A stretch of DNA of 38,873 nt from Akkermansiaceae bacterium (GTDB lineage Bacteria > Verrucomicrobiota > Verrucomicrobiia > Verrucomicrobiales > Akkermansiaceae), in contig CAIRGO010000253.1 of NCBI GenBank assembly GCA_903878115.1, positions 1 through 38,873 on the forward strand. The letters are read 5' to 3'. Numbering within the stretch: position 1 is the stretch's first letter; each line of letters opens with the position of its first letter. Below the pieces are notes generated by a model. The model ran no database searches and had not been told where the DNA came from. It saw nothing but the letters and a program-made list of their open reading frames with translations. The translations under genes were made by a program, and so were the position numbers. Below, piece after piece: positions 9,062 through 38,873 of this stretch.

Positions 9062-9313
9062 ATGGGACAGCAAATTAAAAAAGTAATGAAACGTCGTCGC
9101 CGCAAGGACTACCTGCGTCGCAAAAGTGAGCAAGCAAAACTAGGCGGAAGCGTCAAGAAAGCAAGCGTTGTGAAGAAGGCGTCCGATGGATCAGCCGCTG
9201 AAAAACCTGCTAAAAAAGCACCTGCGAAAAAAGCAGCTGCGAAGAAAGCTCCTGCCAAAAAGGCTGCAAAAGTCGTAGCAGAGACACCAGCCGAAGAAAG
9301 CGCTGAGTCTTAA
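9062..9313 (+). CDS. Small basic PVC-type protein with lysine/alanine-rich tail
   Basis: An 83-residue, extremely basic protein. The first ~30 residues (MGQQIKKVMKRRRRKDYLRRK) form a compact basic core of the type shared between Verrucomicrobia and Chlamydiae. Residues about 47-70 are alternating KKAPAKKA-like repeats resembling histone H1-like tails, and the end is acidic (AEESAES). This suggests a nucleic-acid or ribosome-binding role. It is a single-gene unit: a divergent promoter interval to the left and a strong terminator 28 bases after its stop. I recognise the family only by its core and composition, not by a known mechanism. Confidence 0.75.
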   Translation: MGQQIKKVMKRRRRKDYLRRKSEQAKLGGSVKKASVVKKASDGSAAEKPAKKAPAKKAAAKKAPAKKAAKVVAETPAEESAES

Positions 9314-9340
9314 TACATATTTTTTCACCATTTTTCCTTC

Positions 9341-9375
9341 AGCGATCTTCACTCATAGTGGGGGTCGCTTTTTTT
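9341..9375 (+). terminator. Rho-independent terminator after the small basic protein gene
   Basis: AGCGATC pairs with GGTCGCT (one G-T pair), CAC pairs with GTG inside, and the right arm runs into seven Ts. It ends the transcript of the small basic protein before the prepilin peptidase gene starts at 9408. Confidence 0.85.
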
Positions 9376-9407
9376 ATTGATCTGCTTTATTATTGAATCA
9401 ACTCGAT

Positions 9408-10526
9408 ATGTTTCCAGACCTAACATCTTATTGGTGGTATCTTCCTGTCATCCTGCTTGGGGCCTGCGTGGGATCATTTCTCAATGTCGTCATTTATCGA
9501 ATGCCGCTGAATCTATCGGTGAATGATCCCAAACGTTCGTTCTGCCCACTCTGCAAAAACCCCATCCCGTGGTGGCGAAATATTCCGTTGCTTTCATGGC
9601 TCCTGCTGCGAGGAAAATGTGCCGATTGTCACGCAAAAATTCCGATCCGTTATTGGTTTGTCGAACTTCTAACCGCACTACTCTTTGCCGCTTGCTGGCG
9701 CCACTTTGGTCATGAATTGGCGCTCACGCTTTTCATTCTGATGGCAATATTTGTAGCGATTACCTTCATCGATGCCGAGCACCAAATTATCCCCGCTCCC
9801 CTAACCTATATTGGCACAGCCGTGGGACTCATCTCCTCATGCTTTCGTCCGAAATTATTGCATTTGATTTCACCTAACGAAGAGCCGAGCGCATGGTGGC
9901 AAGGACTACTTGATTCCGCCATAGGCTGGACACTTGGATTTTTTGGCCTGTGGTCGGTCGTTTTGTTAGGAAAAATGATGTTCGGCAAAAAGAAAATCTC
10001 GTTAGATCAACCGACCGATTGGCAATTGATCGACGCCACGACTGATGATGAACCGCTGCATTTTTCCTTGGGCGACGAGAAGATTCCATGGTGGGAAATA
10101 TTTTACCGTAAGTCCGATGAAATGTTGTTAGAATGCGATGAAATATTCCTCGATGAAAAAGCATGCGGCAGTGGTCAGTTAAAACTTCGCGAACTAGATT
10201 TCACACTACCCAATGGCGAAATCCATCAACTCACCGAGATAGAATCACTATCAGGAAAAGCAACGAAGGCCATCATTCCGCGTGAAGCGATGGGCATGGG
10301 CGACCCACATTTGTTAGGAATGATCGGAGCATTTATTGGCGGCGGTGGCGTGCTCTTCACCGTATGCTTTTCATCATTTTATGCCCTAGCCATCGCTCTC
10401 TTGGCACGCATCGGGCTTGGCAAACCATTGCCATTTGGGCCCTTTCTCATTCTTGCAGCTGCCACATGGATCTTCGGTGGCTGGAAACTCTGGGAGTGGT
10501 ATATCCAATATTTACAATTCCCGTAG
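9408..10526 (+). CDS. pilD: Prepilin peptidase/N-methyltransferase with large cytosolic insert
   Basis: An aspartyl protease of the type IV prepilin peptidase family (A24), which cleaves and methylates pilin-like precursors at the inner membrane. The start is VGSFLNVVIYRMP, and two CxxC pairs (C46/C49 and C71/C74) form the zinc-binding loop. Catalytic Asp are D122 in TFIDAEH and D299 in GMGDPHLLGMIGAFIG. At 372 residues it is much longer than the usual ~250-290. The extra length is a mostly acidic, soluble segment at about 193-290, just before the second catalytic Asp. Usual members have Lys two residues after that Asp; here it is His. ATG at 9408 is chosen over TTG at 9393. No pilus genes are adjacent. 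Confidence 0.88.
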   Translation: MFPDLTSYWWYLPVILLGACVGSFLNVVIYRMPLNLSVNDPKRSFCPLCKNPIPWWRNIPLLSWLLLRGKCADCHAKIPIRYWFVELLTALLFAACWRHFGHELALTLFILMAIFVAITFIDAEHQIIPAPLTYIGTAVGLISSCFRPKLLHLISPNEEPSAWWQGLLDSAIGWTLGFFGLWSVVLLGKMMFGKKKISLDQPTDWQLIDATTDDEPLHFSLGDEKIPWWEIFYRKSDEMLLECDEIFLDEKACGSGQLKLRELDFTLPNGEIHQLTEIESLSGKATKAIIPREAMGMGDPHLLGMIGAFIGGGGVLFTVCFSSFYALAIALLARIGLGKPLPFGPFLILAAATWIFGGWKLWEWYIQYLQFP

Positions 10527-36195: not shown

Positions 36196-36307
36196 GTGCT
36201 TTGGTGCTCATCCCATCATCAGTCAAGCCGTGCGCTCTCTGGAATTCGGCAAGACTATGCAAATAATGTTTGTCCAGCAGTGGATTTTTTTATTACTATC
36301 AGCGCTC

Positions 36308-36760
36308 ATGAAACACTTTCAATTTCTAATCAAATTTGGCACATGGAATGCAACATTGCTTCTGCACGAAAAGCATACCTTGACCGATCTAGCCCAAGCT
36401 ATTTTGAAAGCCGTTAAATTTGAATTGGATCATTGTTATGGCTTTTATGCACCTGAGTATTTTAAGCGCCAGCGTGGTGTTTATAAGAAGGTGCAGTGCG
36501 AGGAATATTCGCTTTTTGCGGATATGGATTCTGGGAACACAGACATTAGCGATGGTGACACAGGAGTAGTAACTACGCTGATCGATGATGTTTTTGTCTC
36601 GAATAAAGAAATGATTTTTCTCTTCGATTACGGCGATGATTGGCGTTTCGATGTTACTTGCTTAAAGGTCTCAGTAGGCCCGGCGTTCAAGCGAGCTAAA
36701 ATTCTAGCGACAGAGGGAATCCCTCCTATACAATACCGTTATGATGAAGAAGGTCATTAA
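36308..36760 (+). CDS. pRiA4b ORF-3-like protein
   Basis: A protein of about 150 residues resembling the plasmid pRiA4b ORF-3 family, found near plasmid and mobile elements and of unknown activity. The match is in LLLHEKHTLTDLAQAILKAVKFELDHCYGFY at the front and EMIFLFDYGDDWRFDVTCL in the second half, followed by KILATEGIPPIQYRYDEEGH. ATG at 36308 is chosen because it begins the domain; the frame runs up to 36230 through non-conserved hydrophobic sequence. It is flanked by palindromes and an AT-rich spacer, so it may be a cargo-type or relic gene at an insertion site. Confidence 0.6.
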   Translation: MKHFQFLIKFGTWNATLLLHEKHTLTDLAQAILKAVKFELDHCYGFYAPEYFKRQRGVYKKVQCEEYSLFADMDSGNTDISDGDTGVVTTLIDDVFVSNKEMIFLFDYGDDWRFDVTCLKVSVGPAFKRAKILATEGIPPIQYRYDEEGH

Positions 36761-36822: not shown

Positions 36823-36953
36823 TTGCAGCGCGGGGTGGGAGCTTTTGCTATTGCGAATGACTAGAACTGGCATCTCGCAGTTTTTTTGTGAGTGTCTTTA
36901 TTATTTGAATTTATCAAGTAAATCATTTTTATAAAATCAATCAACAAAAACGA

Positions 36954-36982
36954 TTGACAAAATCTTCATGTGTGAAAATATC
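36954..36982 (+). promoter_or_regulatory. Candidate promoter upstream of the WYL and cas3 genes
   Basis: A perfect TTGACA (36954-36959) is followed after 17 bases by AATATC, a weak -10 match. It lies about 40 bases before the WYL start in the most AT-rich interval of the window, with a TATAAAA stretch upstream. It could drive the WYL-cas3 transcript. The call is tentative because the -10 match is poor. Confidence 0.3.
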
Positions 36983-37023: not shown

Positions 37024-37449
37024 ATGAATCGTTTGCAATTTCTCCAATCATTCATCGCCACTAGTTTCGCAAGCGGGGTCGGGCTCCCAGATGATCGTGC
37101 CGGCAAGACGTTTTCCGCTGAAACAATTACTACGGTCTCTGCGGAAGAAATCGTTCCCGACTGGCTCACTATTTGGCAAGCCGATGTCATCATCCCGATC
37201 ACTGAGGCCGACGATGATCGAGCGCTCATGATTCTTCTCTCCCACCAACATCGTCAGCAATCATTAGAGATCCTCTACCATGGTGGCACTTGGGACAAGC
37301 GTGAGCCACGCACCATCACCCCCATTCTTCTCTTCGAAAAACGCAACTTCTTCGCCACCTACCTCCTCGCTTGGTGCCATCAACGCCAAGCCGCCAGAAC
37401 TTTTCAGTTGGATAAAATCACCCTCTATCAGAAACGATCTAGTAACTAA
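37024..37449 (+). CDS. WYL-domain protein with Tat-like N-terminus, next to cas3
   Basis: A 141-residue protein. From about residue 79 to 135 it matches a WYL domain (LEILYHGGTWDKREPRTITPILLFEKRNFFATYLLAWCHQ ... ARTFQLDKI), a module that binds nucleic acids or nucleotides and regulates some CRISPR systems and defence genes. There is no helix-turn-helix domain. Instead the first ~22 residues (MNRLQFLQSFIATSFASG) look like a twin-arginine export signal with one arginine replaced by Leu, which fits poorly with a cytoplasmic regulator. cas3 starts 101 bases downstream on the same strand, so the two are probably one operon. It may regulate or assist the CRISPR locus; this is inference from position and family. 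Confidence 0.7.
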   Translation: MNRLQFLQSFIATSFASGVGLPDDRAGKTFSAETITTVSAEEIVPDWLTIWQADVIIPITEADDDRALMILLSHQHRQQSLEILYHGGTWDKREPRTITPILLFEKRNFFATYLLAWCHQRQAARTFQLDKITLYQKRSSN

Positions 37450-37550: not shown

Positions 37551-38873
37551 ATGGCATACTTTGCTCATACTCATCCAGATTTTCCCAGCGATTCGTCAGC
37601 ATGGGAACCTCTCTTCACCCCTTTTGGTGAAGGCGAGCATGAGTGCCAACGCGAGAAATGCTGTAAATGTAAAAATCTTGAACCTTACCACGGTCATCTT
37701 AACAAAGTCGCTTTTTGGGCTTCTAAGTTCGCTTCAGAAATGTTCGCACCGAACTCACCTGCATCCCACTCAGCCTGCGACTGGGGATATCTCACTGGGC
37801 TCTGGCATGATTTGGGGAAATTTCCGCAGGAATGGCAGGACTATCTGCGCTCCAAGGCGGATCCACATACCGACGACCTTTCGGGCAAAGTCGATCATTC
37901 TACCGCCGGAGCTCAACACGCTGTCAACATCCATCCCGCACTTGGTCACCTTGTGGCATACCCCATTGCTGGTCACCACTCTGGCTTGCTTGATGGAAAA
38001 TCAAATACTGCCTGCCAGGCTATGCGGCTTCAAAAAACCGATCTGCCTGACTATCAAAACGCACCGTCGGAGATTACTTCTCATCCTGTCCCTAAATTAC
38101 CTGTATTTCTTTCGCGTGATGCCTGCTCTGTAAGCCTGTTCACACGCATGATTTTTTCTTGCCTTGTCGATGCCGATTTTCTCGCCACTGAGGCATTCAT
38201 GAACCCGTCGCAGGCGAAAACTCGCAATCAATCGCCCGACTCTGCCCTTCATGATATTTCCCTACTGATTGATTCTAGAATCGACGCTTTCGGCATTCCT
38301 TCAGCCGACGACATCGTAAATTTCCAGCGGCGCACAGTGGTTGAAGACTGCCGATCTGCTGCGAACCAATCTTCCGGAATTTTCTCACTCACCGTTCCAA
38401 CCGGCGGCGGCAAAACCCTTTCTTCGCTAAGTTTTGCGCTCCGTCATGCCCTCGTTCATGGTCAGCAGCGCGTCATCTACGTGGTTCCTTTCACTTCCAT
38501 CATCGAGCAGAACGCCGAAGTAATTCGTGAAATCCTTGCTCCACTTCAAACCGTTAGTTTCACACCATTGATCGAGCATCATTCATCGCTCTCTCCGGAA
38601 AAGGAATCCACGCAAGCCCGCCTCGCCACTGAAAATTGGGAATCACCCATCATCATCACCACCGCCGTCCAGTTTTACGAATCCCTCTTCGCAGCGAAAA
38701 CCTCGCGCTGTCGCAAGCTCCATAACATCGCGAACTCCGTCGTTATTCTCGATGAAGCCCAATCACTTCCAGTCGATTTCCTTAAACCTTGTCTCCGCGT
38801 TATTCAGGAACTAGCAGACCACTACCACACCACAGCTGTTGTCTGTACCGCAACCCAACCTGCTGTGCATTAC
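37551..38873 (+). CDS. cas3: CRISPR-associated HD-nuclease/helicase Cas3 (C-terminus outside window)
   Basis: An open frame of 441 codons from ATG at 37551 to the end of the window with no stop. HD nuclease: H49, H86-D87 in LWHDLGKF, DHS at 115-117 and H142-H143 in AGHHSG. Helicase: Walker A VPTGGGKTLSS (P283-T289), VVPFTSIIEQN, DEAQ at 401-404 and the TATQP motif III at 433-437. The frame is cut before motifs IV-VI. Such a single-chain HD-helicase degrades target DNA recruited by a type I Cascade complex. The DEAQ box and layout suggest a type I-C-like variant, but the subtype needs the missing cas genes. A four-cysteine insert (C32, C37, C38, C40) precedes the HD core. Confidence 0.9.
   Translation, partial: MAYFAHTHPDFPSDSSAWEPLFTPFGEGEHECQREKCCKCKNLEPYHGHLNKVAFWASKFASEMFAPNSPASHSACDWGYLTGLWHDLGKFPQEWQDYLRSKADPHTDDLSGKVDHSTAGAQHAVNIHPALGHLVAYPIAGHHSGLLDGKSNTACQAMRLQKTDLPDYQNAPSEITSHPVPKLPVFLSRDACSVSLFTRMIFSCLVDADFLATEAFMNPSQAKTRNQSPDSALHDISLLIDSRIDAFGIPSADDIVNFQRRTVVEDCRSAANQSSGIFSLTVPTGGGKTLSSLSFALRHALVHGQQRVIYVVPFTSIIEQNAEVIREILAPLQTVSFTPLIEHHSSLSPEKESTQARLATENWESPIIITTAVQFYESLFAAKTSRCRKLHNIANSVVILDEAQSLPVDFLKPCLRVIQELADHYHTTAVVCTATQPAVHY

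Follow-up and report, generated by a model that had tools for sequence, protein, structure and literature searches.

Small WYL-domain proteins with a Tat-like leader, often encoded before CRISPR and other defence genes in Verrucomicrobiia

The stretch of DNA analysed here (38,873 nucleotides, hereafter the window) makes up an entire contig, C253, of an Akkermansiaceae bacterium assembly. Near its end, on the forward strand, lies a small gene (37024–37449), followed 101 bp further on, on the same strand, by a cas3 gene (37551–38873). The small gene, here called mini-WYL, starts with ATG and encodes a protein of 141 amino acids, as judged from its open reading frame, Pfam and the alignment of its family. 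Residues 76–133 (37249–37422, + strand) form a WYL domain (PF13280; E=4.9e-11, 42.9 bits against a curated cut-off of 21.8), beyond which no further Pfam family matched up to E=1. Pfam, NCBIfam and PADLOC gave no helix-turn-helix (HTH) match, and a WCX domain is absent as well, the C-terminus lying only 8 residues past the WYL match. Residues 1–75 are read as a leader plus a linker. The leader, delimited by family alignment and hydropathy, covers residues 1–22 (MNRLQFLQSFIATSFASGVGLP; 37024–37089, + strand). In the N-terminus (MNRLQFLQSFIATSFASG, starting MNRLQFLQSF), R-L stands where Tat signals have R-R, that is, the second arginine of the pair is replaced by leucine, and the best 11-residue stretch after R3, IATSFASGVGL, has a mean hydropathy of 1.44. 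Two alternative in-frame starts precede the WYL domain: a TTG at codon 4, which would retain the hydrophobic stretch, and an ATG at codon 69, which would remove the linker. A chance open reading frame was rejected as an explanation for 37024–37449, homologues having been found, and a predicted structure of the protein alone was discarded (mean pLDDT 45.7, pTM 0.34). The mini-WYL gene is preceded, in the same orientation, by a gene of the PRiA4_ORF3 family (36230–36760; E=7.3e-08), which starts with GTG and encodes 176 aa.

The cas3 gene encodes a type I-C-like HD nuclease-helicase, with matches to TIGR01596 (Cas3'' HD, E=4.4e-22) and to PADLOC Cas3c (E=1.6e-123). The window being the whole contig, the gene is truncated by the contig end. 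No Csd1/Cas8c was found in the window's assembly, so that the I-C label is taken from Cas3 only; the half of cas3 present in the window, used as the query, had no second copy elsewhere in the assembly. (A weak HD match was seen on contig C137.) The three observations from which the initial annotation had started, namely a WYL domain with no HTH, a Tat-like N-terminus with RL in place of RR, and a position just upstream of cas3 on the same strand, have thus all held. The link to cas3 is nevertheless facultative. In a search of the order, in which 49 of 288 genomes matched, 30 loci holding the closest cas3 genes were retrieved (a few of them truncated by contig ends), and a mini-WYL gene lies upstream of cas3 in two, the window and G549. 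Constant presence beside cas3 is not seen, and the proposal of a core type I-C cas gene was rejected. Before a type I-C-like cas3 that has no mini-WYL gene, in locus L124, a divergent BrxR/CapW-type HTH-WYL-like frame is found (274–1140; NEENWAAQERLRAIE), which matches the mini-WYL profile weakly (E=0.0088).

The window protein, used as a query, gave matches in 12 of 192 nearby genomes, its own included, several of them ordinary WYL proteins. A profile of eight sequences (A1) matched in 12 of 387 genomes of the phylum, half of these matches being long proteins of another WYL family, and in 23 of 386 genomes of the order. A second profile, of 25 sequences (A2), matched in 59 of 384 genomes of the class, mostly WYL proteins in frames of 292–489 aa. 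(Ten candidates per genome were scored in the profile searches, and further members may have been missed.) After removal of other kinds of protein, the family consists of 28 small proteins, the 25 in A2 and three found later (L173–L175), and it recurs in several families of the class. Left out were L077 (diverged and leaderless), L084 (degenerate), L082 (a 407-aa frame), five look-alikes of HTH-WYL regulators (L025, L027, L029, L014 and L015), the likely spurious L010/L026, the weak matches in 292–489-aa frames from the class search, and L040–L045 (frames of 547–774 aa, from another WYL family). The last belong to a distinct protein family, seen in other families of the phylum, whose long members carry a WYL-like domain at the N-terminus. 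A scan of genome contigs with the window protein returned only the ordinary HTH-WYL look-alikes L014 and L015; no relatives were found on plasmids with two queries, or on viral contigs with one relative as the query. Members of the family share a common plan, in which a leader or N-terminal stretch and a variable linker precede a lone WYL domain with the motif Y.GG[ST].PG..R...P..[LV]F and, towards the C-terminus, an RTFRLDRI-like strand.

Relatives in the class align with the window protein across both the leader and the WYL domain, with R3 and F6 of the window protein matching the RRxF of the relatives. By alignment, a true RR is present in 21 of the 28 members (18 of the 25 aligned in A2 and all three later finds). 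The exceptions carry RL (the window), RT (L079, L080) or RH (L028), or are without a recognisable leader motif (L020, L069, L072). Because starts had been chosen by leader, a start-independent test was also run, for the pattern RR.[FIL] and then ten residues free of D, E and K, anywhere upstream of the WYL core. It was found in 19 of 28 members, against 1.58 expected from residue shuffles, and in 21 of 28, against 1.85 expected, when a longer upstream region was used. With the chosen starts and a looser Tat rule, 20 of 27 members were positive compared with 10 of 283 background ORFs (same loci, ≥250 aa); two of the 20 (L069, L072) look spurious, and one of the ten (L083) is itself a family member. 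This set of 27, which also underlies the upstream-element counts below, includes L077 and L084 and excludes L173–L175.

Since the leader is recovered across the family without any choice of start, a wrong-start artefact was rejected as its source, and the concern raised in the initial annotation that a start further downstream might remove it falls away. The N-terminus, whose conservation had been left as a question there, is indeed kept in most homologues; those lacking it exist, but they form a minority (L020, L069 and L072, and outside the 28 also L077 and L084). The suggestion that the leader had been recruited from an unrelated exported protein finds no support, the leader being family-wide and the window copy the deviant. 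An export-type leader is common and was probably ancestral in the family, with the RL of the window a departure from it. Several members also have, by eye, an AxA-like site and an Ala/Ser/Thr/Pro-rich linker, and such features are often found in exported proteins. Of the 26 genomes with members of the family, 25 have TatC, among them that of the window (E=6.6e-62); the sole miss is a genome that is 78% complete. RL is a poor Tat motif, and of the features of a Tat substrate the window protein has the hydrophobic segment and a TatC in its genome but not the twin arginine. In L021, where a mini-WYL frame (9211–9663) stands before an I-C-like cas3, the leader is not preceded by any ATG, GTG or TTG; an ATT is found exactly at the position of the relatives' start methionine (INRRPFLQ), and may be a rare start or the mark of a damaged gene.

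What lies behind these genes? In at least 15 of the 28 loci, a same-strand defence gene follows within 5 kb. PADLOC was run on the downstream neighbours of 16 loci, picked as defence-looking, and 15 matched (L022 did not); the count is a lower bound, because the 12 other loci had no downstream neighbours scanned, and these 12 are among the 13 loci that are without a demonstrated nearby defence gene. The systems found are diverse: CRISPR types I-C (Cas3c in the window, L021, L067 and L080), I-G (Cas3g in L018, L066, L070 and L074) and II (Cas9 and Cas1 in L079), Hma (HmaA/HmaB in L019), BREX (a PglZ piece and BrxL, behind a trypsin-like gene, in L081), restriction-modification of type I (a methyltransferase in L020) and type III (a restriction enzyme in L078), a PbeC/DndD-like ATPase (L076) and an HKD-Snf2 helicase (L083). 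Nine of the 28 members are linked to CRISPR, eight of them with cas3 and one with cas9, and the distance from the mini-WYL gene to cas3 ranges from overlap to 4.8 kb. As a rough guide, assuming at most two CRISPR loci per 5-Mb genome, chance would place a cas effector gene at 5 kb or less from far fewer than one of 28, against the nine seen. The cas-linked accessory envisaged in the initial annotation was thus partly right: the CRISPR link recurs, but the description is too narrow, since the genes also stand before Hma, BREX, restriction-modification and DndD-like systems and 28 of the 30 cas3 loci have no mini-WYL gene upstream. Some members adjoin apparent housekeeping genes (hisS- and aspS-like in L068, L069 and L072, by eye).

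A second kind of neighbour is frequent. An HTH-WYL-type regulator lies within 1.1 kb of, or overlaps, the mini-WYL gene in 16 of 28 loci, 12 being PafBC-like and four belonging to the BrxR/CapW family; in the remaining 12 loci no such neighbour was found. Two of the PafBC-like neighbours, scanned with Pfam, have WYL and WCX domains and an HTH_11 match below its cut-off, and one that was compared with solved structures matched PafBC at 4e-14. The four BrxR/CapW-family genes are all divergent from the mini-WYL gene, 53–110 bp away, and one of their products matched CapW (1.4e-36) and BrxR (1.6e-35) along most of its length. No HTH-WYL gene was found in the 38.9 kb of the window. In its assembly there is one gene of the BrxR/CapW family, on contig C25 (L030, 4021–5463), which is divergent from a patatin-like phospholipase gene, the two possibly forming a defence pair. 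In two loci the HTH-WYL and mini-WYL genes flank a vWA-type gene (DRSGSM; L018, 2221–2913; L019, 8384–9058).

The DNA upstream of the family holds a recurrent element. TGTCCCACC, with at most one mismatch, occurs within 120 nt upstream of 11 of 27 members, ten of which have it at −28 to −30; among other ORFs the figure is 7 of 270. The seven other ORFs include cas3 in L080 and a 317-aa gene in L070, both with the element at −30, the latter gene lying between the mini-WYL gene and cas3. TGTCCCACC is absent upstream of the mini-WYL gene of the window, and the window as a whole has 5 matches (≤1 mismatch) against 4.6 expected. The 11-mer TGTCCCACCCC precedes vWA genes by 6–76 nt in L018, L019, L093, L095, L106 and L107, making the vWA gene a possible third member of the regulon, and it lies 75 nt before cas3 in L131. 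It also lies about 70 nt before the starts of two genes, in L098 (HTADLHLG) and L101 (HTADWHLG), in which we take these starts to be the motif of SbcD/Mre11 nucleases; a site before SbcD/Mre11-like genes hints at a DNA-damage regulon. Over 20 genomes, TGTCCCACCCC gave 70 matches in sum against 45 for a reversed control, which is only a mild excess, so most single sites may be background and the case for the element lies in its position before genes. In both sequence and position, the upstream element of the family resembles the promoter consensus given for PafBC, tTGTCRgtg-8-TannnT (PMC5656591). The window has instead an inverted repeat, TCAATC-N9-GATTGA(C) (36937–36958, + strand), overlapping a TTGACA −35-like hexamer (36954–36959). 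GATTGAC also occurs before L074 and L075, and a GATTGAT-type near-match before L078, three of the four BrxR/CapW-linked relatives; the repeat is short, however, and the sharing is possibly due to chance.

WYL domains have a conserved, positively charged ligand groove. Of the pocket residues, Y85, R96, Y113 and R125 are kept in the window protein, and Y85, R96 and R125 are invariant across the 25 A2 sequences. By alignment, Gln128 is the equivalent of R201 of PafC, and Lys131 that of R204. Joint mutation of PafC R201/R204 and PafB R211/R214 abolishes single-stranded DNA binding, the PafB pair mattering most (PMC11804915). An arginine is found at the R201 site in 20 of the 25 sequences and is lost in the window, L020, L066, L067 and L070. 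With Gln128 and Lys131 in place of the two arginines, the window copy is unlikely to bind single-stranded DNA just as PafBC does. Its RL leader, together with the loss of these arginines from the pocket, suggests a derived member that Tat exports weakly or not at all.

What might such a protein do? The reading preferred here, held tentatively (a probability of about 0.45), is that the mini-WYL protein would be a portable accessory of WYL-controlled defence regulation, with the leader setting its location. Together with an HTH-WYL regulator in the cytosol, whose gene may lie in cis or, as possibly for the window, in trans, it would help to control expression of the operon that follows, by pairing with that regulator or by competing for its ligand. 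The amount of mini-WYL protein in the cytosol would be set by the leader: while the cell is healthy and energised, the protein would go to or through the membrane, and when export or the membrane potential fails, as in phage entry, it would stay inside and shift the regulator. The boldest form of this idea, which we regard as distinctly unlikely, is an export-based alarm. Tat would continually remove the WYL protein, and when phage entry or membrane damage made export fail, the protein would accumulate, pair with the cytosolic HTH-WYL regulator and turn on the defence operon, CRISPR or other. An alarm of this kind would fit a Tat-type protein encoded beside HTH-WYL regulators. What the sequences show directly is the architecture, the recurrence of the leader, the frequent position before defence genes and the frequent HTH-WYL neighbour; from these we infer the predicted export of the family's proteins, its use as a signal and the binding of a partner. 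Against the preferred reading stand the window's want of an HTH-WYL gene and of TGTCCCACC, the 12 loci in which no HTH-WYL neighbour was found, the members beside housekeeping genes, the mild genome-wide excess of the 11-mer, the absence of WCX pairing domains, and the RL leader. According to PMC11804915, PafBC, which dimerises via its WCX domains, and its orthologues are alone among reported WYL proteins in being heterodimeric; a mixed WYL complex would thus have a precedent, yet the domains that do the pairing there are missing here.

Among the alternatives, the one that survives best, though unlikely, would have the protein work outside the cytoplasm. Once exported by Tat, it might act as a scavenger, a sensor or a barrier by binding a ligand (nucleic acid, nucleotides or another) at the inner membrane or in the periplasm, and its link to the defence genes would be no more than co-expression. 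The twin arginine and hydrophobic segment of most members, the AxA-like sites and Ala/Ser/Thr/Pro-rich linkers noted by eye in several, and the presence of TatC all accord with such a role. It leaves the HTH-WYL neighbours without any known route from such a protein to them, however, and regulation would account more readily for the position before so many intracellular defence systems of different kinds; moreover, the window copy and the CRISPR-linked L079 and L080 do not have the second arginine. Slightly less probable is that the leader has ceased to act as an export signal in the window member, which would then be a cytosolic or membrane-attached WYL accessory with the leader as a relic or a membrane-binding helix. 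The RL of the window, the RT of L079 and L080, the RH of L028 and the leaderless L020, L069 and L072 are in keeping with this, as is Gln128 in the pocket, a sign of general drift in the window copy, but the RL and RT members have retained R3, F6 and a hydrophobic run, and some constraint may remain. That the small WYL genes are fragments of HTH-WYL regulators travelling with defence islands and doing nothing specific is highly improbable, for although their facultative presence (2 of 30 cas3 loci) and the divergent pocket of some CRISPR-linked copies (L066, L067, L070 and the window) would suit mere passengers, the invariance of Y85, R96 and R125 over 25 diverse sequences, the conserved leader, the positioned upstream element and the recurrence in several families of the class would not.

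WYL domains are common ligand sensors in the regulation of bacterial defence and DNA damage, and elsewhere they are known as components of intracellular regulators. A lone WYL sensor with an export-type leader, placed before many unrelated defence systems, is therefore unexpected, and would point to control at a level so far unexamined, possibly connecting the envelope with immunity. Literature searches on WYL domains with twin-arginine, periplasm or signal peptide gave, among the titles listed, none on exported WYL proteins, and none was found that joined WYL, Tat signal and phage, or WYL domain, twin-arginine and defense. WYL control of defence is known, and it is the leader-WYL form that was not found described in the literature searched. 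In CRISPR types I-D and VI-D, the accessory WYL proteins sll7009 and WYL1 modulate CRISPR loci. They share with the window protein a tie to CRISPR, and are set apart from it, as generally described, by carrying a DNA-binding or a second WYL domain and no export leader.

Compared with solved structures, the family profile matched PafBC best (6sj9, 1.1e-14), followed by a DeoR-family regulator, 8tp8, which is presumably DriD. PafBC and DriD are WYL activators of the DNA-damage response (PMC11804915, PMC5656591, PMC6789036; for DriD, PMC12340889), from which the window protein differs in having no HTH or WCX domain, in its leader, and in the Gln and Lys at the two arginines for single-stranded DNA. 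The architectures that cover more than 90% of WYL sequences include an HTH domain (PMC6789036). The BrxR/CapW family of HTH-WYL repressors (PMC9122601, PMC9122588, PMC9122589) likewise combines a WYL domain with a place beside diverse phage defence systems, 48% of 347 BrxR homologues having defence genes within 50 kb downstream (PMC9122601). BrxR, however, has a winged HTH (PMC9122601) and is 291–299 aa long with a further C-terminal region, whereas the window protein, of 141 aa, has neither HTH nor such a region and has a leader instead. A parallel in placement comes from unrelated proteins: CapK and CapS, a DNA damage-responsive regulator pair consisting of a kinase and a STAS-like repressor, are likewise encoded upstream of diverse immune operons (PMC13373217).
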